Of a DNA stretch of 64,000 nt, positions 13,380 to 49,994 are shown in pieces. A model generated the notes under the pieces. That model saw only the letters and a list, made by a program, of their open reading frames with translations. It did not search any database and was not told where the DNA came from. The position numbers and the translations under genes are program-made. How positions within the stretch are numbered: the first letter of the stretch is position 1; the number at the start of each line of letters is the position of its first letter. The stretch comes from Rhodococcus ruber NBRC 15591 (lineage in GTDB: Bacteria > Actinomycetota > Actinomycetes > Mycobacteriales > Mycobacteriaceae): the NCBI RefSeq assembly GCF_001894945.1, contig NZ_BCXE01000034.1, forward strand, positions 62,001 to 126,000. Direction: 5' to 3'.

Positions 13380-13394
13380 TCCCTCTCAGCGGAC
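13380..13394. promoter_or_regulatory. Possible cluster operator (15-bp palindrome, 12/15)
   Basis: TCCCTCTCAGCGGAC differs at three of 15 positions from the palindrome TCCCGCTCAGCGGGA found before several steroid genes. It lies 77 bp upstream of the ene-reductase-like gene, close to the 68 bp seen for its paralogue. Confidence 0.4.
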
Positions 13395-13411
13395 ACCGCG
13401 CGGGCTCGGCG

Positions 13412-13510
13412 CTCGTCCGGACGGCGGACCCCGGCGACGGTGCGCGACGAAGAGGGCCGCCCTTCCACCGCGGGGCGACATCCACTGCGTCTCCGAGCAC
13501 CGACCGCGAC
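13412..13510 (+). pseudogene. Decayed 3' fragment of an agmatine deiminase gene
   Basis: Two blocks align with aguA. Bases 13412-13458 match 11698-11742 (about 39 of 47 columns, including ACGGTGCGCGACGA), and bases 13455-13510 match 11885-11943 (about 46 of 55, including CATCCACTGC, which in aguA encodes the catalytic cysteine). The roughly 140 bp that separate the blocks in aguA are missing, and a one-base gap shifts the frame, so nothing functional can be made. It lies between a divergent pair, just upstream of the GS-like gene. Confidence 0.75.
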
Positions 13511-13614
13511 GGTCGTCGCCGGCGCTGTCCGGTGTCGGCGAAGACGGCCCCCGTGACCCGTCCCCCCTCTACTGTGTCCTCGGGACGGCCCACGGCGCGT
13601 GCGGGAGGTTTCCT

Positions 13615-14922
13615 GTGACGGAGGAACGGCTCGATACCGGGGCGGCGGATCGGATCGTCGGTTCGATCGTCGACTCGACCGGGATCTCGCGCGCCAAAGC
13701 TTTTCCCGCGCACATGCTTTCGTGGTTCGTCGAGGTCGGTGCGGGGGCGTCGCCGAGCTGGGCGGTGTTCTGCGTCGACGACCACCTGGCGTTCACACCG
13801 TCGCTGTCGGTGACGGGTGATCTGCGGCTGCGGATCGACCGCGACCGGCTCCGGCGTATCGGCGACGGGATCCGATGGGCTCCTGCCGGCCTGTACGACC
13901 AGGACGGGACACGGTCGTCGCTGTGCACCCGCGGGGTGCTCGAGCGCGTCGTCGACGCCCTCGCCGGGATCGGGGTGCAGGCCCGGATCGGGCACGAGGT
14001 GGAGTTCACGCTCGTCGGCGGGCACGACGAGTGGGCCGCGTACGGACTCGGCGCCGTCCTCGGGCAGGACGAGTTCGTCGCCGACCTGCTGCGTGCCGCC
14101 GCAGGCGCCGGACTGGGGATCGAGCAGATCCACGCCGAGGCGGGCGCGCAGCAGTTCGAACTGTCCCTGTCCCCCACCGACCCGGTCGGCTCGGCCGACG
14201 ACCTCGTTCTCGCGCGCATCCTGATCGGTCGCACCGCGCGCGCCCACGGGATGCGCGCGTCGTTCTCGCCCGTGCCCGTCGCCGGCGGGTCGGGCAACGG
14301 CGCCCACGTCCACGTGTCCTTCACCCGGGACGGGCGGCCGCTGCTGTCCGGTGGCGCCGGCCCGCACGGGATGACGGACGCGGGCGGCAGCGTCGTCGCC
14401 GGCATCCTGCGCGCCCTCCCCGGCCTCGGCGCCGTCCTCACCGGGTCCGTGCTTTCGCACCTGCGGCTGCGGCCGGGCATGTGGGCGGGCGCCTGGTGCT
14501 GCTGGGGACTCGAGAACCGCGAGGCCGCGGTGCGGCTGTGCGCCCTCACGCCTGGGAATCCGCACGGCGCGCATCTCGAGGTCAAGCCGGTGGATCCGTC
14601 GGCGAACCCGTACCTCGCCTGCGCGGCGATCCTCGGGGCCGCGCACGCCGGCCTCGTCGGTGCACTGCCGCTGCCGGCGGAGGTCCCGGTCGATCCCGTC
14701 CGGCTGACCGACGCCGAACGCGCCGCGCTCGGGGTCGACCTCCTTCCCACGAGCCCCGACGACCTGCTCGCGGCCCTCGCCTCGTCGCGGCTCGCCGGTG
14801 ACCTGTTCGGGCCGTCGCTGCGCGAGGCGCTGCTCGCGGTGAAGAGCTACGAGTACGGCGAGTACCGCGCGCGGCCACCCGCCGAACTCGCGGAGCGGTT
14901 CCGTTTCGCATGGACCACCTGA
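13615..14922 (+). CDS. Glutamine-synthetase-like ligase, possibly gamma-glutamylpolyamine synthetase
   Basis: 435 residues of the GS superfamily. Metal and ATP-site motifs are present: IGHEVEFTL, AGAQQFELSLSP, GGSGNGAHVHVSF, LENREAAVRL and HLEVKPVDPSANPYL. The N-terminal beta-grasp part is reduced. In an island for putrescine and agmatine use, ATP-dependent gamma-glutamylation of an amine is a better guess than ammonia assimilation, but the sequence alone does not prove the substrate. Start is GTG 13615 after GGGAGG. It is transcribed rightward, with the small membrane-protein gene about 100 bp downstream. Confidence 0.8.
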   Translation: MTEERLDTGAADRIVGSIVDSTGISRAKAFPAHMLSWFVEVGAGASPSWAVFCVDDHLAFTPSLSVTGDLRLRIDRDRLRRIGDGIRWAPAGLYDQDGTRSSLCTRGVLERVVDALAGIGVQARIGHEVEFTLVGGHDEWAAYGLGAVLGQDEFVADLLRAAAGAGLGIEQIHAEAGAQQFELSLSPTDPVGSADDLVLARILIGRTARAHGMRASFSPVPVAGGSGNGAHVHVSFTRDGRPLLSGGAGPHGMTDAGGSVVAGILRALPGLGAVLTGSVLSHLRLRPGMWAGAWCCWGLENREAAVRLCALTPGNPHGAHLEVKPVDPSANPYLACAAILGAAHAGLVGALPLPAEVPVDPVRLTDAERAALGVDLLPTSPDDLLAALASSRLAGDLFGPSLREALLAVKSYEYGEYRARPPAELAERFRFAWTT

Positions 14923-15019
14923 GGGCGTGGCGAATTTCACCGTAACGGGCGTGCCGGGTTTGTCGATCTACGGCCGTCGGCAACTGCGGACAGTCGACAC
15001 CTGTGGAGAACGGACGACC

Positions 15020-15370
15020 ATGCACAATCCCGAGTCGGTGGACCCTCTCGCGTCCACCCAGCCCATCGCCAAGGTGCTCGTCCCGGGCGAGCCGGCCGCG
15101 GCGCCGGCGTCGCACTCCGCGGCGCGGGTCCCGGCCTCCGGCGCCGAGGTCCGACGCGTCAAACGGCTCACCTACGGCGACGAGCCCCGCGGGCGCGCGT
15201 GGCGGCCGGATCTGTGGACGGTCGTCGGCGTGCTGGCCGTGCTGCTGGCGGTCGCGTTCGTCGTCGTCGCGGTACTCGTCTCGGGGAACCGGTCGCAACC
15301 GTCGTACCGGCCCGGTTACGCACCGTCGGGCATGGGCGCTGCGTCCGTGCCCGTCGCGGCCGTCGCGTGA
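15020..15370 (+). CDS. Small single-pass membrane protein, unknown function
   Basis: 116 residues. Residues 1-65 are polar with Ala/Pro, then one hydrophobic stretch (WTVVGVLAVLLAVAFVVVAV) and a short Gly/Pro/Ser/Tyr-rich tail. ATG 15020 follows GGAGA at a normal distance; an in-frame GTG at 14927 would give 147 residues but has no better ribosome site. Not recognised. Codon use fits coding DNA. Confidence 0.6.
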   Translation: MHNPESVDPLASTQPIAKVLVPGEPAAAPASHSAARVPASGAEVRRVKRLTYGDEPRGRAWRPDLWTVVGVLAVLLAVAFVVVAVLVSGNRSQPSYRPGYAPSGMGAASVPVAAVA

Positions 15371-15390
15371 GGACCCCCGACCTGCCCTCC

Positions 15391-15405
15391 TCCCGCTGAG
15401 CGGGA
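15391..15405. promoter_or_regulatory. Cluster operator, perfect 15-bp palindrome
   Basis: TCCCGCTGAGCGGGA, 7-bp arms with one central base; identical, on the other strand, to the site at 48951-48965. It lies 70 bp before the mycofactocin-type SDR and marks the left end of the steroid cluster. Confidence 0.65.
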
Positions 15406-15474
15406 TCGCCGGAGTGTCGCCGCCCTCCCGGGGCAGCAGCATCGACCTGCTGACCGAGTAGGAGGAGTGAATCG

Positions 15475-16311
15475 ATGAGTGAATTCGAAGGCCGGGTCGC
15501 GCTGATCACGGGCGGGGCACGCGGGCAGGGACGCAGCCACGCGGTGGCGCTGGCCGAGCGCGGCGCCGACATCGTGCTGTGCGACCGGTGTGCCGACAGC
15601 CCGGTGGTGCCGTACCCGCTGGCCACCGAGGCCGACCTGGAGGAGACCGCGGAGGCGGTGCGCGCGACCGGGCGCCGGTGCCTCACCGCGAAGCTGGACA
15701 CCGCGGACCGCCCGGCGATGGACGAACTCGTCGCGCGGGCGCACGCGGAGTTCGGCCGGATCGACATCGCGGTGGCGAACGCCGGAGTGTCGGTCGCCGC
15801 CCCGATCCAGTCGATGACCGAGGCACAGTGGGCCGAGGCGATCGGATCGAACCTGACCGGGGTGTTCAACACGGTCGGGTCGGTGGCACCCGGCATGGTG
15901 GAGCGCGGGTACGGCCGGATCGTGACGATCTCGTCGATGCTCGGGCGCGCGGGCAACACCAACATGGCGGCGTACAGCGCGTCGAAGTGGGGCGTGATCG
16001 GCCTGACCAAGAGCGCCGCGCTGGATCTGGCTCCGCACGGGATCACGGTGAACGCGATCGCCCCCGGGAACATCTCGACGCCGATGATCCACAACGACTT
16101 CCTCTACGGCCTGATGCGCCCGGACCTCGAGCACCCCGGCGCCGACGACGTGGCGCCGGTCTTCCAGAGCCTGCACGCACAGCCGGTGCCGTGGCTCGAT
16201 CCCGAGGAGATCACCCGCGTGGTGCTGTTCTTCGCCGCCGAGGCGAGCACCCACATCAGCGGCACCGTGCTGCCGGTCGACGCCGGCAACGCGGGCCGGG
16301 TAACCGGATAG
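15475..16311 (+). CDS. SDR of the mycofactocin-coupled type
   Basis: 278-residue short-chain dehydrogenase. The N-terminal motif TGGARGQGRSHAVALAERGA with an expanded loop (residues about 35-60) is the mark of the mycofactocin-dependent SDR subfamily, which keeps NAD bound and passes electrons to mycofactocin. NAG, SSM and YSASKWG motifs give the catalytic Ser-Tyr-Lys. It could oxidise a steroid hydroxyl group; substrate is unknown. GGAGGAG precedes the ATG. The perfect operator palindrome upstream links it to the steroid cluster. Confidence 0.85.
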   Translation: MSEFEGRVALITGGARGQGRSHAVALAERGADIVLCDRCADSPVVPYPLATEADLEETAEAVRATGRRCLTAKLDTADRPAMDELVARAHAEFGRIDIAVANAGVSVAAPIQSMTEAQWAEAIGSNLTGVFNTVGSVAPGMVERGYGRIVTISSMLGRAGNTNMAAYSASKWGVIGLTKSAALDLAPHGITVNAIAPGNISTPMIHNDFLYGLMRPDLEHPGADDVAPVFQSLHAQPVPWLDPEEITRVVLFFAAEASTHISGTVLPVDAGNAGRVTG

Positions 16312-16325
16312 GCGCCTCCGGCGCG

Positions 16326-16367
16326 GGTGCGTCCTTTGGGCGGCCAGGGCAGCCCAAAGGACGCACC
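16326..16367. terminator. Bidirectional hairpin terminator
   Basis: Perfect 16-bp stem GGTGCGTCCTTTGGGC / GCCCAAAGGACGCACC around a 10-base loop, between two convergent SDR genes. Confidence 0.85.
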
Positions 16368-16374
16368 GGGGGCG

Positions 16375-17136
16375 TCAGCCCCAGCGGGACTGACCGCCGT
16401 CGAGGGGGATGGTCGCGCCGGTGAGGTAGCCGGCGTCCTCGCCGACGAGGAAGACGACGGCCCGGCCGATGTCGGTCTCGGGGTCGCCGATGCGACGCAG
16501 GGGGATTCCGGCGCGGAACTCCTCGGCCTCCTCGGGGTTGCGTTCCATCCACCGCTCGAGTCCCGGCGACAGGGCGTGGGGGGCGATGGCGTTGACGCGG
16601 ATGCCGTCGACGCCCCACTCGCACGCCGCGGCACGGGTCAGCGACCGCATGCCCTCCTTGATCGATCCGTAGACGCCGTAGTTGCTCGCGTCCCACCGGA
16701 CCGCCGCCGAGGTGACGAGGTTGACGATCGATCCACCCCCGCGTTCCTTCATCACCGGGTAGCAGGCCCGCATGAGCCGCAGCGTCGCGAGCGGTCCGGT
16801 GGCGAAGGACCGCTCGAACTCGTCGTCGGTGAACGACAGCAGCGGTCCGGGCCGGCAGTCGTTGGCGTTGTTGACCAGGATGTCCACGCCGCCGAAGTGC
16901 TCGACGGTGCGCTGGACCGCCGCGTCGACGTCGTCGGGGTTGCTGACGTCGCAGCGCACGGCGAGTGCCTTGCCGCCGAGCTCCTCGATCGCCTCGGCCG
17001 TCGAGATCACCTTGGATTCGGTGCGGCCCGCCGCCGCGATCCGCACGCCCTCCTTGGCGAGGGCGAGGGCGATGCCCCGGCCGATCCCCTGCCCCGCGCC
17101 CGTGATGAGCGCGACCTTGCCGTCCAGCTTGCTCAT
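16375..17136 (-). CDS. Short-chain dehydrogenase/reductase
   Basis: 253 residues of classical SDR: TGAGQGIGRGIALALAKEG (cofactor), NNAND, and a catalytic YGVYGSIKEG with YxxxK. Start ATG 17136 follows GGAGCAGGAC. It diverges from the SDR at 17310 across a 173-bp gap holding a KstR2-type box, so it probably belongs to the part of steroid catabolism that handles rings C and D or a hydroxylated intermediate. Possible equivalents are the Rv3548c/Rv3549c SDRs of M. tuberculosis; that is inference. Confidence 0.83.
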   Translation of the reverse strand: MSKLDGKVALITGAGQGIGRGIALALAKEGVRIAAAGRTESKVISTAEAIEELGGKALAVRCDVSNPDDVDAAVQRTVEHFGGVDILVNNANDCRPGPLLSFTDDEFERSFATGPLATLRLMRACYPVMKERGGGSIVNLVTSAAVRWDASNYGVYGSIKEGMRSLTRAAACEWGVDGIRVNAIAPHALSPGLERWMERNPEEAEEFRAGIPLRRIGDPETDIGRAVVFLVGEDAGYLTGATIPLDGGQSRWG

Positions 17137-17207
17137 GTGTCCTGCTCCGGTTCTCTCGCCACTTCGGAAGTCCTGGTGCGTCCCAGGCTCCCCGTCCACT
17201 ATCCTTG

Positions 17208-17221
17208 ACCAAGCACTTGCT
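17208..17221. promoter_or_regulatory. KstR2-type operator
   Basis: ACCAAGCACTTGCT fits every fixed position of the published KstR2 motif AnCAAGnnCTTGnT; the core CAAGCA-CT-TGCTTG is a perfect inverted repeat. It sits between two divergent SDR genes. No KstR2 gene is in the window. Confidence 0.75.
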
Positions 17222-17309
17222 TGTCTATGTCGGTTTCCACCGTCGCCCGCGAAAAGCGTCGGACGGCAAGCAGTCTCGAACCGCTCCGAACTCGCAGAAA
17301 GGTAGCCAC

Positions 17310-18086: not shown

Positions 18087-18092
18087 CCGCGC

Positions 18093-18123
18093 GGATCGGT
18101 GCCCGGATGCCGGGCACCGATCC
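18093..18123. terminator. Bidirectional hairpin terminator
   Basis: Perfect 14-bp stem GGATCGGTGCCCGG / CCGGGCACCGATCC with a 3-base loop, between a rightward SDR gene and the leftward side-chain operon. Confidence 0.85.
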
Positions 18124-18127
18124 CACG

Positions 18128-21679: not shown

Positions 21680-22624
21680 CTACGAGTCCTCCCGTGCGGC
21701 CGGCCGGAACGCGGGCAGCGTCAAATCCGGGTCGGCGTCGATCCAGTCCAGTTCCACCGGCATGCCGATCTCCACCGCGTCCGGCGCGACACCGGTCATG
21801 TTCGCGATCAGGCGGGTGCCCTCCTCGAGTTCGATCGTCGCCACGACGAGCGGGTACTCGAAGCCGGGAATCTGCGGGTGGTGGTTGACCACGAAGCTGT
21901 AGACGGTGCCGCGGCCCGACGCGTCGACGGTGTCCCAGTCGAGCGAGCGGCACTGCCCGCACATCGGTCCCGTCGGGTGCCGCAGGGTGCCGCACGACGT
22001 GCAGCGCTGGATCACCAGCCGGTGCTCCTTCGCCGCCTCGAACCAGAAGGCGTTGTCGGCGTTGAGCGCCGGGCGCGGACGCAGCCCCTTCGGCTTCGCC
22101 TGCGCCGTATCCTTCGGCCGGAAACGGAGGGTGCGCCACCGCTGGGTGGCGACGACCTCGCCGGCGCCGTTGCGGTACGTCTTGAGCGTGGTCACGAAGT
22201 GCCCGGCACCGAGCCCGGTCCTCTTCTCCTCCGAGATCGACTCGATCACCTCGGTGAGCGAGACCCGGTCGCCGGGGCGCAGCTCGGTGAAGAACTCGAA
22301 GTCCGAGTCGGTGGCGACGACGGAGGTGAACCCGGCGGCGTCCAGGGTGGCGATCAGGTCGGTCCACACCTGCGACGGGTCGTTGTTCGCCATCTTGTCG
22401 GTGAAGGTGCGCATCGTCCACACCTGCGTCATGAGCGCGGGGGCGACGGCACCGTCACGGCCGGTGGCGCGGGCGGCCTCGTCGTCGAGGTAGATCGGGC
22501 TGGTGTCGCCCATCGTCTCGACCCAGTGCCGGATCATCGGGGTGTTGACCTCGTCCGGCCCCCACGTGGTGGGGGTCAGGGTCTGCCCCTCGAACGCCCG
22601 CAGCGTGGTCAGCAGTTCGCTCAC
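21680..22624 (-). CDS. MaoC-DUF35 fusion, ChsH2-like
   Basis: 314 residues. Residues about 1-165 form a MaoC-like hot-dog domain; residues about 195-300 are a DUF35 unit with a zinc ribbon (CTSCGTLRHPTGPMCGQCRS) and an OB fold (GRGTVYSFVV). In the igr system ChsH2 hydrates with ChsH1, while its DUF35 part activates the Ltp2 aldolase; all three partners are adjacent here. Start is GTG 22624, overlapping the next gene by 4 bp; the stop abuts the ATG-proximal end of the 20567-21679 gene. Confidence 0.87.
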   Translation of the reverse strand: MSELLTTLRAFEGQTLTPTTWGPDEVNTPMIRHWVETMGDTSPIYLDDEAARATGRDGAVAPALMTQVWTMRTFTDKMANNDPSQVWTDLIATLDAAGFTSVVATDSDFEFFTELRPGDRVSLTEVIESISEEKRTGLGAGHFVTTLKTYRNGAGEVVATQRWRTLRFRPKDTAQAKPKGLRPRPALNADNAFWFEAAKEHRLVIQRCTSCGTLRHPTGPMCGQCRSLDWDTVDASGRGTVYSFVVNHHPQIPGFEYPLVVATIELEEGTRLIANMTGVAPDAVEIGMPVELDWIDADPDLTLPAFRPAAREDS

Positions 22625-23787
22625 TTGACCCTCTTCTCCCGCACGAGGCCCAGGCCCATGGTGCCGACCATGTCGCGCAGGACCTCGTTGACGCCGCCGC
22701 CGAACGTGTTGACCATGCCCTGCCGGGAGATCTGCTCGATCTGACCGGCCAGCACCGCGCCCGGCGATTCGGGACGGATGCGACCGGCCGCGCCGAGGAT
22801 GCCCAGCAGCGTCCGGTACACGTCGACGTGGGTCTCGGTGCCGTACACCTTGGTGGCACCGGCGTCCGCGCCCGAGAGGGTGTCGGCCGCGACGGCGGCG
22901 GTCATCTTCCAGTTCAGCAGCCGCATCGCCTCGAGCTTCGCGTGCGTGCGGGCAAATTCCTGCTGCACCCAGGGAATTTCGATGGCGCCGTTCTCCTTCG
23001 CCCAGTCCAGCACCTGATGCCACAGCCCGTAGGTGCGGCCGCCGATCGCGGCCAGGCCGATGCGCTCGTGGTTGAGCTGGGCGGTGATCAGCGGCCAGCC
23101 GCCGTTGATCTCCCCGACCACGTCCCGGACGGGGACGCGGATGCCGCTGTAGTAGGTGGCGGTGACCGACAGGCCGCCGACGGTGTGGATCGGCGACCAC
23201 GAGAACCCGGGCGCGTCGGTCGGCACCATGAGGATCGAGATCCCGCGGTGCTTGGGGGCGTCGGCGTCGGTGCGGCACGCCAGCCACACGTAGTCGGCCG
23301 TGTTGGCGCCCGAGGTGAAGATCTTGTTGCCGTCGACCACCCACTCGTCGCCGTCGCGCACCGCGCGGGTCTTCAGCGACGCCAGGTCGGTGCCGGCCTC
23401 CGACTCGGTGTAGCCGATGGCGAAGACGATGTCGCCGGAGAGGATGCCGGGCAGGAAGCGGTCCTTCTGCTCCTGCGTGCCGTACTTCATCAGGGTCGGG
23501 CCGACCGTGTTGACGGTGACGAACGGGAACGGCAGGCCCGCGCGCTGCACCTCGTCGAAGAAGACGAACTGCTCCTCGATGGACCGGCCCTGCCCGCCGT
23601 ACTCCGTGGGCCAGCCGATCCCCAGCCAGCCGTCCTTGCCGAGCAGCGTGACGACCTCGCGGAAGTGCTCGCCCCCCACTCCCTGCTCACCGGCGCGGCG
23701 ACGCTTGTCCTCCGGCAGCAGCGACGCGAAGTAGGCGCGCAGCTCCCTCCTGAGCGCGACCTGCTCCGGGGATTCCTTCAGATCCAT
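22621..23787 (-). CDS. Acyl-CoA dehydrogenase subunit, FadE29/ChsE2-like
   Basis: 388 residues. FAD and substrate motifs are complete: IGYTESEAGTDLASLKTRAV, GNKIFTSGA, and the C-terminal QGMVNTFGGGVNEVLRDMV. With the 370-residue subunit it should form the heteromeric dehydrogenase for a shortened (C22) steroid side chain. First gene of the tightly overlapping igr-like set; a 99-bp gap separates it from the F420-type gene upstream. Confidence 0.83.
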   Translation of the reverse strand: MDLKESPEQVALRRELRAYFASLLPEDKRRRAGEQGVGGEHFREVVTLLGKDGWLGIGWPTEYGGQGRSIEEQFVFFDEVQRAGLPFPFVTVNTVGPTLMKYGTQEQKDRFLPGILSGDIVFAIGYTESEAGTDLASLKTRAVRDGDEWVVDGNKIFTSGANTADYVWLACRTDADAPKHRGISILMVPTDAPGFSWSPIHTVGGLSVTATYYSGIRVPVRDVVGEINGGWPLITAQLNHERIGLAAIGGRTYGLWHQVLDWAKENGAIEIPWVQQEFARTHAKLEAMRLLNWKMTAAVAADTLSGADAGATKVYGTETHVDVYRTLLGILGAAGRIRPESPGAVLAGQIEQISRQGMVNTFGGGVNEVLRDMVGTMGLGLVREKRVK

Positions 23788-23886
23788 CGCGAATTCTCCT
23801 AGCGACCGAATGTCGTTGTGACCTCGGACGCTAGTCAGCGTGGCCGCCGAGCGGGCGAACCGTCTCGACCAGCGGGAACCGCCCGG

Positions 23887-25634: not shown

Positions 25635-25637
25635 CGA

Positions 25638-27349: not shown

Positions 27350-28543
27350 TCACGCCGTCCGGAGCACGCAGTGGGTGCCCCCGTAGATGGCGGTCATGCA
27401 CTTGTTGCAGTGGTTGCACAGCGACGCGGTGGCCGCGTCCTCCTGCATGCGGTTGACGAGGTCCGGGTCGCGCAGCAGCGCCCGCGCGGCGGCGACGAAC
27501 TGGAAGCCCTCGGCCATCGCCTCGTCGATGATCGCCCGGTTGGTGATGCCGCCGAGCAGCACCAGCGGCATCTTCAGCTGCGACCGGAACTGCTTGGCGT
27601 CCTCGAGCAGGTAGCCGTCGCGGTAGGGGTATTCACGCAGGAAGTGCTTGCCCACCAACTGGATTCCCAGCTTCGTCGGCTGCGGCATCACGGCGGCGAA
27701 GTCGCGCAGCGGCGCGTCGCCCTTGAACAGGTACATCGGGTTGAGCAGCGAGCTGCCGGCGGTCAGCTCGAGGGCGTCGAGCGAGCCGTCGGCCTCGAGC
27801 CACTTGGCGACCTGGATCGACTCGTCGAGCCAGAAGCCGCCGGGCACGCCGTCGTCCATGTTGAGCTTGGCGAGGATCGCGATCTTGTCGCCGACGGCGT
27901 CGCGGACGGCGCGGGCGGCCTCCCGCGCGAAGCGGGCGCGGTTCTCCAGCGACCCGCCGTACTCGTCCTTGCGCTTGTTGATCTTCGGGCTCAGGAACGA
28001 GCTGATGAGGTAGTTGTGCCCGAAGTGGATCTCGACGGCGTCGAAGCCGGCCTCGACGGCGCGGCGCGCGGCCTCGGCGTGGCCCTCGGTGATGCGGGCG
28101 ATGTCCGCCTTGGTGGCGGGCTTGCTGAAGTTCTGGGTCGTCATGCGGAAGGCGCGGCTCGGCCCGAGGGCCGGGGTGCCGAGGTACTTCGCAGCGGCGA
28201 CCGGACCGGCGTGGCCGATCTGCGCGGAGACCGCGGCGCCCTCGTTGTGGATCGCGTCGGTGAGCTTGCGCATGCCGGGCCGGGTCTCGTCGGTCCACTG
28301 CAGCTGACCGGGGGCGGTGCGGCCGTCGGGTGCGACGGCGCAGTAGGCGACCGTCGTCATGCCGACGCCGCCGGCGGCGGGCCGGCGGTGGAACTCGATG
28401 AGCTCGTCGGTGACGAGCCCCTTCGGGGTCAGGCCCTCGAACGTGGCCGCCTTGATCACCCGGTTGCGCAGGGTCAGCGGGCCGAGCTTCGCGGGGGCGA
28501 AGGGATCGATCCTTGTCGTCGGGGTATCGAGAAATGTGGACAT
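27350..28543 (-). CDS. NADH:flavin oxidoreductase, Old Yellow Enzyme type (copy 2)
   Basis: 397-residue single-domain FMN ene-reductase-like protein, similar throughout to copy 1 (12032-13303): DPFAPAKLGPLTLRNRVIKA, SAQIGHAGPV, GFDAVEIHFGHNYLISSFLS, INKRKDEYGGSLENR. The C-terminus has CNHCNKCMTAIYGGTHC, a C-x2-C-x2-C-x9-C set. In BaiCD and 2,4-dienoyl-CoA reductase a related cysteine set binds 4Fe-4S, so an iron-sulfur or zinc site is possible although the reductase half is missing. It begins the long minus-strand operon, 68 bp from a cluster operator. Confidence 0.85.
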   Translation of the reverse strand: MSTFLDTPTTRIDPFAPAKLGPLTLRNRVIKAATFEGLTPKGLVTDELIEFHRRPAAGGVGMTTVAYCAVAPDGRTAPGQLQWTDETRPGMRKLTDAIHNEGAAVSAQIGHAGPVAAAKYLGTPALGPSRAFRMTTQNFSKPATKADIARITEGHAEAARRAVEAGFDAVEIHFGHNYLISSFLSPKINKRKDEYGGSLENRARFAREAARAVRDAVGDKIAILAKLNMDDGVPGGFWLDESIQVAKWLEADGSLDALELTAGSSLLNPMYLFKGDAPLRDFAAVMPQPTKLGIQLVGKHFLREYPYRDGYLLEDAKQFRSQLKMPLVLLGGITNRAIIDEAMAEGFQFVAAARALLRDPDLVNRMQEDAATASLCNHCNKCMTAIYGGTHCVLRTA

Positions 28544-28610
28544 GCGGTTGCTCCTCCGGCAGCGATTCTGCGCCGAACGTAGCCCCGGCTGTCGGGTGGA
28601 TCACGGTGAG

Positions 28611-28631
28611 TCCCGCTCAGTGGTAACCACT
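28611..28631. promoter_or_regulatory. Cluster operator with overlapping palindrome
   Basis: TCCCGCTCAGTGGTA (28611-28625) matches 13 of 15 positions of the cluster palindrome. A perfect AGTGGT-A-ACCACT repeat (28619-28631) overlaps its right arm. The pair lies between the divergent ene-reductase-like gene and the acyl-CoA ligase at 28761, so it could control both. Confidence 0.55.
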
Positions 28632-28760: not shown

Positions 28761-30425
28761 ATGACTGCGTCCGCAGATCCCCGGCTGTACCTCGACGAGG
28801 TCGTCTCCCGCCTGACCGGCCCGGGTGGCCGGTTCGAGATCGTCGAGGAAGAGGTGCTCGGCGCCTCGATGCCGGTGATGAAGAACCGCGGCAAGGCCGT
28901 GGGCGAGCTGCTCGCCGACTCCCTGCGCTGGGGGGACCGCGACTACCTCGTCACCGCCGACCGCCGGCTCTCCTTCGCCGAGCACGCCGCCGCCGCCTAC
29001 TCCCTCGCCCGGGCGCTGCGCAGCGACTACGGCGTCGAGAAGGGCGATCGCGTCGCGATCCTGGCCGCGAACACCCCGGAGTGGGTGATCGCGTTCTGGG
29101 CGAGCCAGACGCTCGGCGCGATCACCGTCGGGCTCAACGGCTGGTGGGTGCCGCGGGAGATCGAGTACGGCCTCGAGCACAGCCGGCCGAAGGTCCTCGT
29201 CGTCGACGCCAAGCGCGCCGAGGCCCTCGCGGACGTCGACACCACCGGGATCACGGTCCTGACGATGGAGGAGGACCTGCCCCGGCTGATCGCGCAGTAC
29301 CCCGGCGCCGAGCCGCCGCGCGTCGACATCGACGAGGACGACCCGTCGGTCATCCTCTACACCAGCGGCACCAGCGGCCGGCCCAAGGGCGCGCTGCACT
29401 CGCACCGCAACCTGCTGGCGGTCGTCGACTACCACCGGTTCAGCGATGCCCTGCTCGCGGCGTTCACCGGCCGGACCTACAGCGACGACGTCCCCAGCGA
29501 CCTGCGGTACCTGCTCACCTCGCCGCTGTTCCACATCGCGAGCCTGCACAACCTGGTGATCCCGCGGCTGGCGACGGGCAGCGCGGTGATCATGCACCAG
29601 GGTTCGTTCGACGTGGACAAGGTGCTGAGCCTGATCGAACGCGAACGCGTCACCAACTGGGGCGCGGTGCCGACGATGGCGTCGCGGCTGCTCGAGCACG
29701 ACAACCTCGACAAGTACGACCTGTCGTCGCTGACGGCGTTCGCACTCGCGTCGGCACCGTCGTCGATCGCATTCAAGGACCGGCTGCGCGAGAAGGTGCC
29801 CTTCGCGCGCGACGCCCTCGTCGACAGCTACGGGCTCACCGAGTGCAGCACCGCCATCGCGGTCGCCAACTCGCAGGACATCGAGGCGTTCCCCGGCACC
29901 CTGGGCCGGCCGATCATCACGGTGAGCCTCGAGATCCGCGATCCGTTCGGCGAATGGCTGCCGGACGGGGTCGAAGGCGAGGTGTGCGTGCGCAGCCCGT
30001 TCGTCATGCTCGGCTACTGGGAGGACGAGGAGGCCACGGCCGCGGTGATCACCCCGGACCGGTGGCTGCGCACCGGTGACTACGGCGTCATCGAGAACGG
30101 CCGGCTGCGCCTGACGGGCCGTCGCTCCGACCTGATCCTGCGCGGCGGCGAGAACGTCTACCCCACCGAGATCGAGCAGACCCTCGACGAGCACCCGGCC
30201 GTGCGCGAGTGCGCCGTGATCGGCGTCCCGCACCCCGACCTCGGTCAGGAGGTGGCGGCGGTCGTCGTCCTCGCCGAGGGGGCGAGCGTGACGGAGGAGG
30301 AGCTGCGCGAGTACGCGGCCGAGCGTCTGTCGTACTTCAAGGTTCCCACCCGCTGGCGGATCACCTCCGACCTGCTGCCCCGCAACGCGACGGGCAAGAC
30401 GGTGCGTCGCGAGGTCAGCATCTAG
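28761..30425 (+). CDS. AMP-forming acyl-CoA synthetase
   Basis: 554 residues. [20 protein letters not shown] (P-loop), [48 protein letters not shown] and the C-terminal [11 protein letters not shown] lysine are all present. It probably activates a steroid or side-chain acid. ATG 28761 follows GAAGGAAAGG. It is the only rightward gene in this stretch and is followed by a strong terminator, so it is a single-gene transcript driven from the shared promoter region. Confidence 0.87.
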
Positions 30426-37565: not shown

Positions 37566-38894
<1,329 letters not shown>

Positions 38895-38947
38895 TTCAGT
38901 TACGCAGGCACGCCGAGGTTCGAGACACGGGTGCGCGACCGGGGAGG

Positions 38948-39592
38948 TCAGACGGAGGGTGCCGGGCTCGCGTTCGCCGGGCTCGCGTTCGACAGGCCCG
39001 CGAGCAGCAGCTCACACGCCACCCGCAGGTCGGACTCCGCGTCGGGAACCGAGATCCGGCCGTTGAGACTGGACTGGATGATCCCGAACCACGCCTGCTC
39101 GAGGACCCGCACCAGCGTCGCGTCCCGTTCGGTGACGTACTCGAGTCCGGCCGCCCGATAGAGCACCTCGCGGAAGCGGTGGTCGATCTTCGCGACGTCG
39201 GGAATGGAGGTGGCCTTGGCGGTGCTCGTGGACTGGATCATCGCCGTCGCCAGCAACGGCCGTCGCCGCAGCGCCCGCGTCGCCCGCACGAGCGCCTCGT
39301 AGACGGCCTCCTGCGGGGTGGCGTCCGGATTGGTGCGCTGGGCCATCCGCTCGCTCATCTGATCGATCTGATCGACCATGACCGCCACGAACAGGTGCGT
39401 CTTGGACGGGAAGTACCGGTACAGGGTGCCGATGGCGACGCCGGCCATCTTCGCGACCTCGTGCATCTGCACCCGTTCGAGTTCCTTCTCGGTCGCCAGG
39501 CTCGCAGCGGCGTCGAGGATGCGCCCGAACCGCGCGCGCTGCTCGGCGGACGTCGGCTCCGCGGCGTCCCGCGCTTCGGCAACTCTGGGCAC
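38948..39592 (-). CDS. TetR-family regulator, KstR-like
   Basis: 214 residues. The DNA-binding part HEVAKMAGVAIGTLYRYFPS followed by KTHLFV closely parallels KstR of mycobacteria, whose recognition helix reads VAVGTLYRYFPSKVHL. The ligand domain (LLATAMIQSTSTAKATSIPD) also has the KstR layout. KstR-type repressors are released by steroid-CoA esters. The gene is followed by the thiolase operon and preceded by a cluster operator (39676-39690), so it is a candidate local regulator. GTG start at 39592. Confidence 0.85.
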   Translation of the reverse strand: MPRVAEARDAAEPTSAEQRARFGRILDAAASLATEKELERVQMHEVAKMAGVAIGTLYRYFPSKTHLFVAVMVDQIDQMSERMAQRTNPDATPQEAVYEALVRATRALRRRPLLATAMIQSTSTAKATSIPDVAKIDHRFREVLYRAAGLEYVTERDATLVRVLEQAWFGIIQSSLNGRISVPDAESDLRVACELLLAGLSNASPANASPAPSV

Positions 39593-39675
39593 GGGGGTCC
39601 TCCTCCGTCGTCTCGTCTCTGCGGCGATGCCGCGCCGCCCAGCATCCCGCGTTCCGCGCCGAGCCGCCGGAGATC

Positions 39676-39690
39676 TTCCGCTCAGTGGGA
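39676..39690. promoter_or_regulatory. Cluster operator (13/15)
   Basis: TTCCGCTCAGTGGGA, 84 bp upstream of the KstR-like gene and downstream of the flavoprotein gene, fits the 15-bp palindrome seen elsewhere in the cluster at 13 positions. Confidence 0.55.
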
Positions 39691-41008: not shown

Positions 41009-41023
41009 TCCCGGACAGTGGGA
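41009..41023. promoter_or_regulatory. Cluster operator (12/15)
   Basis: TCCCGGACAGTGGGA lies between the divergent HsaA-like gene and kshA, 12 of 15 positions matching the cluster palindrome. Confidence 0.45.
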
Positions 41024-41160
41024 TCGCCGCACCCCCGGTGACCGGCCTCACCTAGCGTCGATCCCACAGGTCGCAGGCGGCTGCCGTCCCCCGGCCCACC
41101 CGCGCACAGCACCGAGGTGCTCCATCCGATACGACATTTCCTCCGAAAGGACGGACGACA

Positions 41161-42336
41161 GTGAGCTCCAGCAAGTCCGACGACGTCGAAGTTCGCGAGA
41201 TCGTGGCCGGTGCCGCGCCCACCCGGTTCGCCCGGGGCTGGCACTGCCTGGGCCTGTCCGAGTCCTTCAAGGACGGCAAGCCGCATTCGGTCCACGCCTT
41301 CGGCACCAAGCTCGTGGTGTTCGCCGACAGCAGCGGCAACCTGAAGATCCTCGACGCGTACTGCCGGCACATGGGCGGCGACCTCAGCCAGGGCACGATC
41401 AAGGGCGACTCGGTGGCCTGCCCCTTCCACGACTGGCGCTGGGGCGGCAACGGCCGGTGCACGTCGATCCCCTACGCGCGGCGCGTTCCGCCGATCGCGA
41501 AGACCCGCGCGTGGCACACCCTCGACCAGGACGGAATGCTGTTCGTCTGGCACGATCCCGAGGGCAACCCGCCGCCCGCCGACGTCACCATCCCCCGCAT
41601 CGAGGGCGCGACGAGCGACGAGTGGACCGACTGGGTCTGGTACACCACCGAGGTCGACACCAACTGCCGCGAGATCATCGACAACATCGTCGACATGGCG
41701 CACTTCTTCTACGTGCACTACTCGTTCCCCACGTACTTCAAGAACATCTTCGAGGGCCACGTCGCGACGCAGATCATGCACGGTCAGGCGCGCGAGGACA
41801 TGCGGCCGCACGCCGACGGCCAGCCGAAGCTCGTCGGCAGCCGCTCCGAGGCGGCGTACTTCGGTCCGTCGTTCATGATCGACGACCTGCAGTACAAGTA
41901 CGAGGGCTACGACATCGACTCGGTGCTGCTCAACTGCCACTACCCCGTCACCGAGAACAAGTTCGTCCTGATGTACGGGATCATCGTGAAAAAGTCGGAC
42001 GCCCTCGGCGACTCGGCCGACGAGACGGCCCGCAAGTTCGGTGACTTCATCGCCCGAGGCTTCGAGCAGGACGTCGAGATCTGGAAGAACAAGACGCGCA
42101 TCGAGAATCCGCTGCTGTGCGACGAGGACGGCCCGGTCTACCAGCTGCGCCGCTGGTACGAGCAGTTCTACGTGGACGCCGCCGACGTCAAGCCGGAGAT
42201 GACCGAGCGGTTCGAGTTCGAGATGGACACCACCCGCCCCGTGGCGGCGTGGATGAAGGAGGTCGAGGAGAACCTCGCCCGCAAGACGGCAGCCGAGGAG
42301 GCGGCGACCACCGATGCAACCCCTGCAGTGCACTGA
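41161..42336 (+). CDS. kshA: 3-ketosteroid 9alpha-hydroxylase, oxygenase component
   Basis: 391-residue Rieske oxygenase. The Rieske centre is CRHMGGDLS with CPFHDWRWGG (C-x-H and C-x2-H); the mononuclear iron site is in DNIVDMAHFFYVHYSF (Asp, His, His). KshA with reductase KshB hydroxylates C9 of 3-ketosteroids; together with KstD this opens ring B. Neither KshB nor KstD is in the window, so they must be elsewhere. GTG start at 41161. A 23-bp overlap joins it to a small cysteine protein and then an SDR, one rightward operon. Confidence 0.92.
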   Translation: MSSSKSDDVEVREIVAGAAPTRFARGWHCLGLSESFKDGKPHSVHAFGTKLVVFADSSGNLKILDAYCRHMGGDLSQGTIKGDSVACPFHDWRWGGNGRCTSIPYARRVPPIAKTRAWHTLDQDGMLFVWHDPEGNPPPADVTIPRIEGATSDEWTDWVWYTTEVDTNCREIIDNIVDMAHFFYVHYSFPTYFKNIFEGHVATQIMHGQAREDMRPHADGQPKLVGSRSEAAYFGPSFMIDDLQYKYEGYDIDSVLLNCHYPVTENKFVLMYGIIVKKSDALGDSADETARKFGDFIARGFEQDVEIWKNKTRIENPLLCDEDGPVYQLRRWYEQFYVDAADVKPEMTERFEFEMDTTRPVAAWMKEVEENLARKTAAEEAATTDATPAVH

Positions 42337-46061: not shown

Positions 46062-46093
46062 GACTGTCAGCTCTCTGCTCGGGACCCGAGGGT

Positions 46094-47116
46094 CTACTTC
46101 TGGGCGGCGAGACCGACGGCGATCTCGATGAGTTGGTCTTCCTGGCCCCCGACGAGGTTGCGGCGGCCGGCCTCGATGAGGATCTCCGCGCCGGAGACCC
46201 CGTACCGATCGGCGTGGGTGGCGGCGTGCTTGAGGAAGCTCGAGTACACGCCGGCGTACCCCATCGTCAGCGACATCCGGTCGAGGAGGCACTCGCCGTC
46301 CATGATCGGCCGCACCACGTCCTCGGCGGCGTCGATGATCTTCAGGGTGTCGATACCCGTTCGGATACCGAGCTTCTCGGCGACGGCGACGAACGCTTCG
46401 ACGGGGGTGTTGCCCGCGCCGGCACCGAACCGGCGGGTGGAGCCGTCGATCTGCAGTGCGCCGGCACGCACCGCGAGCACCGAGTTCGCCACGCCGAGCC
46501 CCATGTTCTCGTGCCCGTGGAAACCGACCTGCGCGTCGTCGCCGAGCTCGGCGACGAGAGCCGCGACCCGGTCGGAGACTCCCTCGAGGACGAGGGCGCC
46601 GGCCGAGTCGACGACGTACACGCACTGGCAGCCGGCGTCGGCCATGATGCGCGCCTGCTTCGCGAGCACCTCGGGCGGCTGGCTGTGCGACATCATCAGG
46701 AATCCGACGGTCTCGAGACCGAGCTCGCGGGCCAGCCCGAAGTGCTGGGCGGAGATGTCGGCCTCGGTGCAGTGCGTGGCGATCCGGCAGATCGACGCGC
46801 CGTTGTCGGCGGCCTCGCGGATGTCCGAGCGGACCCCGAGCCCCGGCAGCATCAGGAACGCGATCTTCGCCTGCGTCGCGGTCTCGACGGCCGCCTTGAT
46901 GAGCTCCTGCTCGGGGGTGCGGCTGAAGCCGTAGTTGAACGACGAGCCGCCGAGGCCGTCGCCGTGGGTGACCTCGATGACGGGCACACCGGCGGCGTCG
47001 AGTGCACCGACGATCGAGCGCACGTCCTCGACGGTGAACTGGTGACGCTTGGCATGGGAGCCGTCACGCAACGACGAGTCCGTGATCCGGATGTCGAGAT
47101 CTGCGCTGTAGGGCAT
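46094..47116 (-). CDS. hsaF: 4-hydroxy-2-oxoacid aldolase
   Basis: 340-residue class II pyruvate aldolase of the DmpG/BphI type. The N-terminal [18 protein letters not shown] carries the metal-binding Asp and the catalytic His; [20 protein letters not shown] supplies the two metal His. It cleaves 4-hydroxy-2-oxohexanoate to pyruvate and propanal, which is channelled to HsaG, encoded next to it. Confidence 0.93.
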
Positions 47117-47155
47117 CGACTGTGTTCCTTCGAAAGTACGGTCTGCGGTGGGGTT

Positions 47156-48058
47156 CTACACGCGGGCGGTGAGCAGCTTGGCCGCGAAGCTCTCGCCCAC
47201 CTTCGTGGCGGCCGCGGTCATGATGTCGAGGTTGCCCGAGTACGGCGGCAGGAAGTCGCCGGCGCCCTCGACCTCGAGGAAGATCGCCACGCGGGCGCGT
47301 CCGCCGCTCATCGGGGTGGGGTCGTCGAACTGCGGCTCGGCGCGCAGGCGGTAGCCGGGGACGTAGCCCTGCACCGTGGCGACCACCTCGTGGATCGACG
47401 CGGCGATCGCGTCGCGGTCGGCGTCCTCGGGGATCGAGCAGAACACGGTGTCGCGCATGAGCATCGGCGGCTCGGCCGGGTTGAGGATGATGATGGCCTT
47501 GCCCTTGCGGGCGCCGCCGATCGTCTCGATGCCGCGGCTGGTGGTGATGGTGAACTCGTCGATGTTGGCGCGGGTTCCGGGGCCGGCCGACGGGGAGGCG
47601 ACGCTCGCGACGATCTCGGCGTACTCGACCTCGGTGACGCGGGAGACGGCGTGCACCATCGGGATCGTGGCCTGGCCGCCGCAGGTGATGAGGTTGACGT
47701 TCGGTGCGTCCTCGTGTTCGCCCATGTTCACGGCGGGCACGACGGCCGGCCCGAGGGCGGCCGGGGTGAGGTCGACGACCTGGATGCCGAGTTCGGCGTA
47801 GCGGGGTGCGTTCGCGCGGTGCACGTAGGCCGAGGTGGCCTCGAAGATCACGTCGGGCCGCTCGTCCTGGGCCAGCAGCCAGTCCACCCCCTCGTGGCTC
47901 GCGACCAGGCCCTCGGTCGCCGCGCGGGCGAGACCCTCGCTGCCGGGGTCGACACCGATCATCCACCGCGGCTCGATGACGTCCGAGCGCAGCAGTTTGT
48001 ACATCAGGTCGGTGCCGATGTTGCCCGGCCCGACGATCGCGGCGGTAGCCTTCGTCAC
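47156..48058 (-). CDS. hsaG: Acylating aldehyde dehydrogenase
   Basis: 300 residues of the DmpF/BphJ type: [20 protein letters not shown] (NAD), [19 protein letters not shown] with the catalytic Cys, and [11 protein letters not shown]. Makes propionyl-CoA from propanal, NAD and CoA, in complex with HsaF. GTG start. Spacing of 12 to 40 bp to both neighbours. Confidence 0.93.
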
Positions 48059-48070
48059 TGGTGCACTTCC

Positions 48071-48856
48071 TTACTTGAATTCTACTGAGACAGAGCCGAT
48101 GTCGCTGAAATCAGCGCGGAAGACGTCGCCCGGGCGGGCATCGACGGCGCGGGTGCACGAGCCGGGCAGGATCACGTGCCCGGCCTCGAGCCGCACCCCG
48201 AAGCTCGCCACCTTGCGGGCCAGCCACGCGACGGCACGGGTCGGGTCGCCCAGTACCGCCGCCGCCTCGCCGCGCGCGATCTCCTCGTCGCCCTGGTACA
48301 GCACCGCCGAGATCGCTCCGATGTCGACCCGGTCCGGTTCGATGCGGCCCGCCCCGAGGATCACTCCCGCGGACGAGGCGTTGTCGGCGATCGTGTCCGC
48401 CAACCCGATCCGCCAGTCCACGATGCGCGAGTCGATGAGTTCGATGCTCGGGACGATGTACTCGGTCGCCCGGAGCACGTCCGCCTCGGTGCAGTCCTCG
48501 CCGGGGAGGGTCTCGCCGAGGACGTAGCCGATCTCGACCTCGATGCGCGGGTAGCAGAACTGCGCCGTGTCGATGGGCTCGTCCTCGGCGTACACCATCG
48601 TCGAGAGCAGGTGTCCGTAGTCGGGCTCGTCCACGCCCATCATCTTCTGCATGACCTCGGACGACAGGCCGACCTTGTGGCCGTAGACGGTGGCGCCCGC
48701 CTCGAGCCGGCGGCGGATGTTGATCAGCTGGATCTCGTACGAATCCACCACGTCGATGTCGGGGAAGGTCTCCGTCAGCGGGGCGATCGCGGCGCGGTCG
48801 CGCTCGGCGGCCCACAGAAGATCGGCGGCGGCGAGTCGCCGGGAACCGTCGAGCAT
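48071..48856 (-). CDS. hsaE: 2-hydroxydienoate hydratase
   Basis: 261 residues of the MhpD/DmpE fumarylacetoacetase-like fold: GYGHLLSTMV-type region (YGHLLSTMVYAEDEPID), YPRIEVEIGYVLGETLPGED with metal-binding Glu, and the C-terminal HVILPGSCTRAVDARPGDV. Hydrates 2-hydroxyhexa-2,4-dienoate from HsaD for the HsaF aldolase. A perfect cluster operator lies 95 bp upstream, inside the operon, so an internal promoter is likely. Confidence 0.92.
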   Translation of the reverse strand: MLDGSRRLAAADLLWAAERDRAAIAPLTETFPDIDVVDSYEIQLINIRRRLEAGATVYGHKVGLSSEVMQKMMGVDEPDYGHLLSTMVYAEDEPIDTAQFCYPRIEVEIGYVLGETLPGEDCTEADVLRATEYIVPSIELIDSRIVDWRIGLADTIADNASSAGVILGAGRIEPDRVDIGAISAVLYQGDEEIARGEAAAVLGDPTRAVAWLARKVASFGVRLEAGHVILPGSCTRAVDARPGDVFRADFSDIGSVSVEFK

Positions 48857-48950
48857 CGTGCACTCCTGGAACTGGTCGATGATCCGCGCGTCGTCGCGCC
48901 GATCGGTTGTCTCGAAGGTGGCATATGCGCAGGTGGGAGGACGGAAGTCT

Positions 48951-48965
48951 TCCCGCTCAGCGGGA
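48951..48965. promoter_or_regulatory. Cluster operator, perfect 15-bp palindrome
   Basis: TCCCGCTCAGCGGGA between hsaD and hsaE; best example of the repeated motif, with the site at 15391-15405. Confidence 0.65.
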
Positions 48966-48972
48966 TCGTGGG

Positions 48973-49842
48973 CTAGCTGCGATCGTCGTCGCGCAGCAGG
49001 AACGCGAGGACCGCCGACAGCCACGCGTCGCGGGCTTCGATCATCGTCCAGTGCCCGCACTTCGGGAACGTGTGCAGCTCGCAGTTCGGGATGTCGCGCA
49101 TGGGCAGCATCGCCATGTCCACGGGGCTGACCCGGTCGTCGCGGCCCCACGTCAGCAGGGTGGGCGCGGTGATCTTGTGCAGCTGCGCCCAGTACGGGGT
49201 GACGTTCGAGGCGGCCGCCGCGGCGGCGCCGGCGGCGAACGCCTTCGAGCTGTACATCCGGCGGGCGATCTCGAGGGTCTTCGGTTCGGTGGCGAGCGCC
49301 CAGCGTTCCTCGACGAGCTGGTCGGTGACCACGGCGGGGTCGTAGACCATGGACTGCAGCCAGCGGACGAGGCCCTCGCGGGTGGGGTTGTCGGTGAACT
49401 CCATGAGCAGCTTGATGCCCTCGCCCGGTCCGGGCGCGAAGACGTTCTTGCCCATCCCGCCGATCGTGACGAGCCTGCGCACGCGGTGCGGCTCGTCGAT
49501 GGCGACCTTGGCGGCGACGATCCCGCCCATCGAGTTGCCGACCATGTCCACCGCACCGAGACCGAGGCCGTCGAGGAAGGTGCCCACGGCCCCCTGCGCC
49601 ATCGCCATCGGATGGCCGTCGCCGGGGTCGCTGACGCCGAAACCGGGAAACTCGAGCACCAGGCAGCGGAAGTGCCGCGCGAAGTCGGCGAGGACGCCGC
49701 GGTAGTTGCGCCACCCCGTCACCCCCGGGCCGGAGCCGTGCAGCAGCAGCAGCGGCGGTCCGTCGCCGGCCTCGTGGTAGCGCAGCACACCCTGATCGGT
49801 GGGAAGTTCCTTCAGGGTCCCCTCGTAGCTCACTTCGGTCAT
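48973..49842 (-). CDS. hsaD: 4,9-DSHA C-C bond hydrolase
   Basis: 289-residue alpha/beta hydrolase, meta-cleavage product type. LLLHGSGPGVTGWRNYRGVL (oxyanion loop), nucleophile in MVGNSMGGIVAAKV, Asp in TWGRDDRVSP, His in PKCGHWTMIEA. It splits the ring-A cleavage product into the dienoate used by HsaE and the bicyclic DOHNAA propanoate. ATG 49842 has AGGGA before it. Divergent from hsaB over 240 bp with two operator-like sites. Confidence 0.92.
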   Translation of the reverse strand: MTEVSYEGTLKELPTDQGVLRYHEAGDGPPLLLLHGSGPGVTGWRNYRGVLADFARHFRCLVLEFPGFGVSDPGDGHPMAMAQGAVGTFLDGLGLGAVDMVGNSMGGIVAAKVAIDEPHRVRRLVTIGGMGKNVFAPGPGEGIKLLMEFTDNPTREGLVRWLQSMVYDPAVVTDQLVEERWALATEPKTLEIARRMYSSKAFAAGAAAAAASNVTPYWAQLHKITAPTLLTWGRDDRVSPVDMAMLPMRDIPNCELHTFPKCGHWTMIEARDAWLSAVLAFLLRDDDRS

Positions 49843-49930
49843 CGTCGTCCCTGTTCGTCGCCGTGGTGCCGGGCACACCGCCCATTCGAACCGCAGGCTG
49901 CCAGCCCTGATCGACGACGGCCATACACCA

Positions 49931-49945
49931 TCCCGTTCAGCGAGA
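49931..49945. promoter_or_regulatory. Cluster operator (13/15)
   Basis: TCCCGTTCAGCGAGA, 89 bp upstream of hsaD; one of a pair in the hsaD-hsaB intergenic region. Confidence 0.5.
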
Positions 49946-49979
49946 TCACCGCTCGGTCGACGGCGGCGCCGCCGACCCC

Positions 49980-49994
49980 GTCCGCTCAGCGGGA
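49980..49994. promoter_or_regulatory. Cluster operator (13/15)
   Basis: GTCCGCTCAGCGGGA, 90 bp upstream of hsaB. Its distance from hsaB equals that of its partner site from hsaD, as expected for one site per divergent promoter. Confidence 0.55.

Follow-up and report, generated by a model that had tools for sequence, protein, structure and literature searches.

The 64,000-nucleotide stretch of Rhodococcus ruber NBRC 15591 analyzed here (contig NZ_BCXE01000034.1, positions 62,001 to 126,000; the window) is, judged from its predicted proteins, a bile-acid (cholate) catabolic cluster with two regulators, and its promoters carry two different motifs. Motif A is a 15-bp palindrome with the consensus TCCCGNTSANCGGGA; motif B, TnnAATnnATTnnA, is of the KstR type. 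Probably, an IclR-family protein encoded beyond the window activates through motif A and a KstR-like TetR protein, KstR3, represses through motif B, which would make a two-regulator circuit. With chances only slightly on the favourable side, a conserved circuit of this kind runs bile-acid catabolism across several actinobacterial families: a KstR-derived repressor, whose operator has AAT for AAC, would silence the IclR activator and the side-chain operon, and IclR would drive ring degradation and its own repressor. Motif A itself has already been predicted, as Lcin1, TCCCGGT[C/G]ACCGGGA, in the orthologous bile-acid cluster E of Nocardioides simplex (Shtratnikova et al. 2020, PMC7593942); the IclR reader, the spacing to the -10 box and the second motif are additions of this work. 

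Motif A at the promoters of the cluster

Several proteins point to steroid and bile-acid degradation. CasG, a steroid-24-oyl-CoA synthetase, scored 1024.4 bits with NF052580 (cut-off 750) and HsaA 647.9 bits (cut-off 450), while HsaD (255.6 bits, cut-off 400), HsaB (177.2, cut-off 230) and HsaC (339.2, cut-off 450) stayed below their cut-offs. A KshA-like Rieske oxygenase, a hydratase, an aldolase, an OYE-like enzyme and a mycofactocin-coupled SDR are also encoded, and the FadA5-like thiolase gene is apparently the first of a side-chain degradation operon.

An earlier note on this DNA had listed eight copies of the palindrome at gene boundaries. Their coordinates and mismatch numbers are correct, and all eight lie between called genes. 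Allowing up to three mismatches, the window contains 23 matches to motif A, counted strand-wise, where 6.7 were expected; this number was reached in 0 of 100 shuffles. A symmetric matrix was then built from 97 distinct sites that precede orthologous genes in other genomes, excluding the own genome and the very close G015; since these sites were chosen with at most two mismatches to the consensus shape, the shape is not independent of the choice, and the window is. The information lies in T-C-C-C-G at -7 to -3, in the mirror of these columns and in T/A at ±1; the center is C or G, positions ±2 hold 0.03 bits, and the flanks carry almost no information. Lcin1 is identical to motif A at every informative position and differs at ±2, with G/C in Lcin1 and C/G in the window; because these bases are uninformative, the two are the same motif.

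The matrix upheld seven of the eight listed copies and added one that had been overlooked, at 23863 (Table 1). The copy at 13380..13394 (strand.) was rejected: it scored 7.0 bits, rank 26 in the window, below the mean fifth-best score of 8.65 in 20 first-order Markov simulations of the window, and a scan 28-31 bases downstream of it found no TANNNT. The five best scores in the window are all intergenic, as are eight of the best nine, the exception being a coding match at 11393; the best score in the simulations averaged 13.4, with a maximum of 20.0. The note had also placed one site on each side of the hsaD/hsaB gap at an equal distance of about 90 bp. This holds if hsaB starts at the ATG at 50084 (89 bp); our gene caller put the start at 50153.

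Across the whole genome, TCCCGNTSANCGGGA with at most one mismatch occurs at 48 places. Six simulated genomes (first-order Markov, using the dinucleotide composition of the available DNA) had 24.7 on average (range 13-34). The earlier pattern TCCCGCTSAGCGGGA with at most two mismatches occurs at 58, against 42.3. The excess is thus about twofold at best. Reversed patterns had suggested far more (48 versus 4, 58 versus 12, and 23 versus 0 for motif B). This control was unfair and was rejected, because the simulated genomes gave the real patterns far higher counts (means 24.7, 42.3 and 16.2) than the reversed ones suggested (means 4.0, 39.0 and 1.3 for the reversed patterns in the same genomes). 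The placing of the copies is the stronger fact. Among 50 of the 58 places, 21 are intergenic, whereas 6.5 would be expected if the share of DNA outside called genes were 12.9%, as in the window (binomial 3e-7). Each of the 21 lies before a gene, in agreement with the operator proposed before; three of them are neighboring tandem repeats at one locus (L036), and the 29 coding places include two (L030 and L033) that the caller left open and whose DNA was judged NRPS-like by eye. The palindrome is real and promoter-bound.

The sites also keep a preferred distance to a -10-like box (here and below, -10 boxes, gene starts and operons are predicted). Of 47 site-to-gene directions in the own genome, 11 have TANNNT at 29 or 30 bases downstream of motif A, and eight matches fall on the other 62 offsets together. 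The most frequent single offset in relatives is again 29 (22 of 227 directions), with further matches out to 35. With at most two mismatches, motif A joined to the box by this rule matches four times in the window, always in promoters, while 30 Markov simulations gave 0.1 on average; at most four mismatches yield five matches against 1.4. In the thiolase promoters of relatives, motif A (up to three mismatches) stands 28-30 bases before TAGAAT in 13 of 28, and at no other distance in any of the 28. With such spacing, motif A would be centered near -49 and lie upstream of the -35 region, like an activator site. For the cholic-acid-induced kshA1 of R. ruber Chol-4, a palindromic stretch and a TAGCGT box have been reported as well (PMC8228715).

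Conservation of the sites in orthologous clusters, which the earlier note had named as a check, was found. Counted over distinct 300-bp upstream regions of relatives, de-duplicated by sequence only so that related genomes count repeatedly, motif A precedes hsaD in 26 of 26, hsaB in 9 of 9, hsaE and hsaF in 4 of 4 each, kstR3 in 38 of 45, LLM in 18 of 20, iclR in 30 of 40, casG in 11 of 15, kshA in 8 of 12, thiolase in 18 of 27, hsaA in 6 of 10, mftSDR in 1 of 1 and OYE2 in 1 of 3. It is missing in 7 of the kstR3 and 10 of the iclR regions, and it was found before none of the in-operon genes hsaC (0 of 12), ACAD (0 of 9) and ltp (0 of 6).

It is very improbable that the palindrome is mainly structural, a terminator or a repeat, and intergenic by chance. 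In favor of this reading, the palindrome is perfect and rich in GC, its excess in the genome is small, and one genome (G060) has eight perfect copies with no recognized steroid genes beside them. Against this stand the position of all 21 intergenic own copies before genes, the preferred -10 spacing, the occurrence before the same genes in several families, and flanking columns without information.

Motif B and the KstR-like regulator

Motif B was found as a conserved AT-rich block when the upstream regions of iclR were aligned. Its forms are TGRAATnnATTYCA and TAGAATnnATTYCA, and DNA of the TAGAATnnATTCTA type is the predicted target of KstR3. Compared with the KstR motif TnnAACnnGTTnnA, one base pair is changed in each half (AAT/ATT for AAC/GTT), and length and spacing are kept. 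The copy at 38807, before the thiolase gene, is the only zero-mismatch match to TGRAATNNATTYCA in the window and one of two zero-mismatch places for TNRAATNNATTYNA in the genome; the own iclR gene has a copy 45 bp upstream.

In relatives, motif B lies upstream of iclR in 37 of 40 regions (missing in three), of thiolase in 23 of 27, and of LLM, which shares the iclR gap, in 18 of 20, over a background of 29 in 574. It is rare before kstR3 (2 of 45), ltp (1 of 6) and ACAD (1 of 9). No copy was found upstream of hsaD (26 regions), casG (15), kshA (12), hsaC (12), hsaA (10), hsaB (9), hsaE (4), hsaF (4), OYE2 (3) or mftSDR (1). At thiolase promoters, TAGAAT, which may serve as the -10 box, forms the first half of motif B in 23 of 24, the exception being the TGGAAT of the window, and at iclR motif B follows a TANNNT box, most often by two bases (10 of 38). 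At both genes motif B overlaps the predicted -10 or start region, which are repressor positions.

The predicted reader of motif B is the KstR-like TetR protein, for which we use the name KstR3 after PMC7593942. It is the third-best KstR match in the genome and falls below the KstR cut-off (Table 1); the canonical KstR, on contig C23, scored 332.2 bits. Their recognition helices are VAIGTLYRYF in KstR3 and VAVGTLYRYF in KstR. KstR3 is a relative of KstR, probably with a related operator on promoters, and the pair may serve as a natural example of two such proteins whose operators seem to differ in a single base pair of each half. Among named organisms, Prescottella, Rhodococcus and Nocardia are the nearest that carry KstR3. 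KstR3 has a relative of solved structure over nearly its full length, PDB 3bjb (E 6.9e-85), which is deposited only as a probable TetR regulator.

Table 1. Accepted motif sites and the genes discussed with them (window positions, except for the entry on C34; the last column gives the box at the preferred spacing from motif A)
Feature	Position	Strand	Score	Location	TANNNT
Motif A, perfect	15391..15405	.	22.3 bits, joint top rank in window	before mycofactocin-coupled SDR gene 15475-16311(+)	not present
Motif A, overlooked earlier	23863..23877	-	14.2 bits	before acyl-CoA dehydrogenase-like gene 22621-23787(-)	TAGCGT at 23828-23833, 29 bases downstream
Motif A	28611..28625	.	18.3 bits	between OYE-like gene 27350-28543(-) and casG 28761-30425(+)	TACGTT at 28576-28581, on side of OYE-like gene
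Motif A (TCCCACTGAGCGGAA)	39676..39690	-	19.6 bits	before kstR3	GATGCT at 39641-39646, 29-base spacing, not a TANNNT box
Motif A	41009..41023	.	15.8 bits	between hsaA 39763-40929(-) and kshA-like gene 41161-42336(+)	TAGCGT at 41053-41058, on side of kshA-like gene
Motif A, perfect	48951..48965	.	22.3 bits	before 2-keto-4-pentenoate hydratase-like (hsaE-like) gene 48071-48856(-)	not present
Motif A	49931..49945	.	19.0 bits	hsaD side of hsaD(-)/hsaB(+) gap	not present
Motif A	49980..49994	.	14.0 bits	hsaB side of hsaD(-)/hsaB(+) gap	TAGCGT at 50024-50029
Motif B (TGGAATACATTCCA on minus strand)	38807..38820	-		81 bp before thiolase gene	
Motif B, second copy with mismatches (TGAAATGAATTCTT on minus strand)	38885..38898	-		before thiolase gene	
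Steroid 3-ketoacyl-CoA thiolase gene, FadA5-like	37566..38726	-	NF005889, 669.6 bits (cut-off 515)		
kstR3, KstR-like TetR gene	38948..39592	-	NF033703, 124.8 bits (below cut-off 280)		
IclR-family gene	C34:142451-143341			16.5 kb beyond window, 41 kb from kstR3; motif A copy 154 bp upstream	

Which regulator reads which motif

The earlier note had taken the palindrome to be distinct from the KstR motif, and this is supported: TnnAACnnGTTnnA has one match in the window, with one mismatch, fewer than the 3.2 expected. Of its two explanations, another regulator or a KstR-like protein with altered specificity, we favor the first, because the KstR3 helix is nearly that of KstR and a separate, conserved KstR-type motif is present in the cluster. 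Its proposal to test, among other families, any IclR gene close by the window pointed the right way. The protein encoded there matches PF01614 and PF09339 over cut-off, and its best family is PcaR/PcaU/PobR (TIGR02431) with 127.9 bits, under the curated cut-off of 284.75; from these scores it is related to the PcaR/PcaU/PobR subfamily without being a member of the TIGR02431 model. Its recognition helix is LPRSTVHRIL.

Three points argue for IclR as the reader of motif A: a PobR-like core, a gene kept near the cluster, and the TANNNT spacing. The PobR site is listed as TTGTCCGATSATCGGACAR in a review of the IclR family (PMC8222616), and its core CCGATSATCGG is contained in the core of motif A, CCGNTSANCGG; both are odd palindromes, and they differ in the outer bases, TC..GA in motif A and GT..AC in the PobR type. 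In our own comparison with the IclR group-1 consensus of that review, GKTYCRYW3-4RYGRAMC, the perfect window copy agrees at 12 of 15 positions, the mismatches being at ±6 (C/G for T/A) and at the center (S for W). In the review numbering, mapped by us, the protein would have Arg28 and His32; His32 weakly prefers C (PMC8222616), at a position where motif A has C by the same mapping. The reach of the two also differs, since motif A precedes many promoters of a steroid regulon, whereas PobR-type regulators generally govern their own gene plus one or two operons next to it (PMC8222616). As to the gene, matches to IclR and KstR3 lie within 25 kb of each other on one contig in 22 of the 27 genomes that have both, often with a more distant (about 50-55%) KstR3 copy. 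Another 20 genomes, selected for CasG or KstR3, all had an IclR match (E<=1e-25), with at least 57% identity in 19. In one genome (G055) iclR adjoins hsaB/hsaD. Within the own genome, homologues of about 42% identity are present at two other loci (L042 and L036), both with intergenic motif A, and a second steroid cluster of another genome (L189 in G038) has one of 44%.

Under the circuit that we favor, a PobR/PcaR-kind IclR activator would bind motif A just upstream of the -35 region, with the center at about -49, and recruit polymerase to the promoters of the hsa, ksh, casG, OYE-like and SDR genes and of kstR3. KstR3 would bind motif B and keep iclR and the side-chain thiolase operon repressed. 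An inducer, which might be a steroid acyl-CoA like that of KstR, would release KstR3; the IclR level would then increase and the remaining genes would be turned on. Activation of kstR3 by IclR would give negative feedback. The thiolase promoter, which in many relatives also has motif A, may be under both regulators. The motifs, the genes downstream, their conservation and their positions are observed, and the pairing of each motif with a reader, the signs of regulation and the inducer are predicted.

In a rival pairing, KstR3 would read motif A and autoregulate, and motif B would belong elsewhere, for example to IclR autoregulation. KstR3 as the reader of motif A was our first working hypothesis, as most kstR3 orthologues have an upstream site. 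The authors of the N. simplex study tentatively named KR76_18060, the KstR3 orthologue, as the Lcin1 factor (PMC7593942), the E. coli IclR box TGGAAATNATTTCCA is similar to motif B too (PMC8222616), and the two regulators nearly always co-occur. This pairing was demoted on account of the helix comparison, the IclR linkage, the -10 spacing and motif B, and we now regard it as unlikely. The KstR3 helix is nearly that of KstR, whose motif is AAC/GTT-like, and motif B keeps the KstR length and spacing, while motif A is similar to the PobR/IclR group-1 motif and has the position of an activator site. In addition, the steroid clusters L036 and L189 have motif A and an IclR homologue, with no KstR3-like match in the stretch examined. 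It is quite improbable that activator and repressor both act at motif A and compete for the palindrome. The two genes co-occur and both of their promoters carry motif A, but a second KstR-type motif with a different main gene set makes such sharing unnecessary.

Several results weigh against the pairing of IclR with motif A and KstR3 with motif B. Motif A precedes most kstR3 genes, as would be expected if KstR3 were its reader. Presence or absence cannot separate the two candidates: among 101 genomes (own and 100 relatives), IclR (E<=1e-60) was found in 32, KstR3 (E<=1e-40) in 28 and both in 27, and profiling both regulators against motif counts gave no separation. The linkage of IclR is thin, with homologues at 3 of 10 own loci with intergenic motif A (query gene included) against 0 of 28 others. 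The eight perfect copies of TCCCGCTSAGCGGGA in G060 occur with neither regulator at the thresholds used; no steroid genes were recognized in the seven stretches that hold them (L179-L185), whose neighbors are mostly unlabelled against the reference set. In another genome, G039, iclR has motif B at 41 bp, motif A was looked for in the same gap and not found, and the KstR3-like protein is only 39% identical; as a supposed IclR-only genome it decides nothing, since a distant full-length KstR3-like protein is present (L264, 36-39%). At four of the eight sites accepted in the window (15391, 39676, 48951 and 49931), no TANNNT stands at the spacing, the threshold of the conservation count for motif A has a high background (172 of 574 upstream regions, cluster genes included), its genome-wide excess is weak, and the gene sets of the two motifs overlap, because motif A also precedes thiolase. 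For motif B, the window has eight matches with up to three mismatches against 8.0 expected, a second scan gave two against 0.5 (reached by 11 of 100 shuffles), and the 23 places in the genome hardly exceed the simulated mean of 16.2 (range 14-20); the case for it therefore rests on conservation. Finally, in N. simplex KR76_18060 is induced by lithocholate and KR76_18040, described as the 'casA' regulator, is not (PMC7593942); if KR76_18040 is the IclR protein, iclR does not show the predicted rise in that species.

Related systems and further sites

A wiring of this kind has a precedent in the steroid island of Pimelobacter simplex, where the TetR protein SRTF1 was found by in vitro ChIP-seq to bind upstream of the IclR gene SRTF2 (PMC7062782), at a different TetR site; that site is a 22-bp palindrome, unlike motif B, and the likeness concerns the wiring. 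In Mycolicibacterium neoaurum, the name kstR3 is used for a TetR gene whose product represses a side-chain operon (PMC10398937); the common name does not show orthology with the KstR3 of the window. Our proposal differs from that of the Lcin1 authors in its IclR activator, where they had suggested the KstR3 orthologue as reader, and in adding the -10 spacing and the second motif. No assignment of an IclR protein to motif A was found in the openly licensed papers searched, which is no proof of absence.

Knowledge of bile-acid regulation has been called limited in a review (PMC8399759). Cholic acid induces kshA1 and kshA2 of R. ruber although the authors of the study found a KstR site upstream of neither gene, which led them to suggest that other regulators are involved (PMC8228715). 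With one operator that follows a spacing rule, a separate one for the repressor and a candidate activator, the circuit can be tested directly, and it could help the engineering of steroid-converting strains.

Further copies of the motifs were found in other regions. At L036 on contig C30 of the own genome, three tandem repeats with 25-bp spacing (2481-2545), each with CCCGCGGAGCGGGA, lie between SnoaL-like and PadR-like genes in a second steroid cluster, which encodes KshA, a KstD-like protein, an HsaB-like reductase and the IclR homologue. In G039, a catabolic region with MFS, SnoaL, LLM and KstD-like genes (C8:1-30000, L191/L192) has five intergenic copies of motif A with at most one mismatch, and no IclR or KstR3 match was found at E 1e-12 in the 30 kb examined. 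At L042 (G000:C4:13500-23500, positions 4245-7039), a second pair of a TetR gene (KstR-like, 70.9 bits) and an IclR gene flanks an SDR gene, with one copy of the palindrome and, seen by eye, AGAATC/GATTCT-like AT-rich repeats nearby. The TetR/IclR module may thus have been duplicated. The window itself has 2.2 kb (51916-54158) without a called gene under the codon model and with open frames, which may hold genes of different composition. Beyond it, at L018:753-898 (C34:146753-146898), two weak KstR-type sites with three mismatches to TGRAATNNATTYCA precede a PRK07792-family SDR gene (L018:947-1885), which is another candidate target of KstR3.

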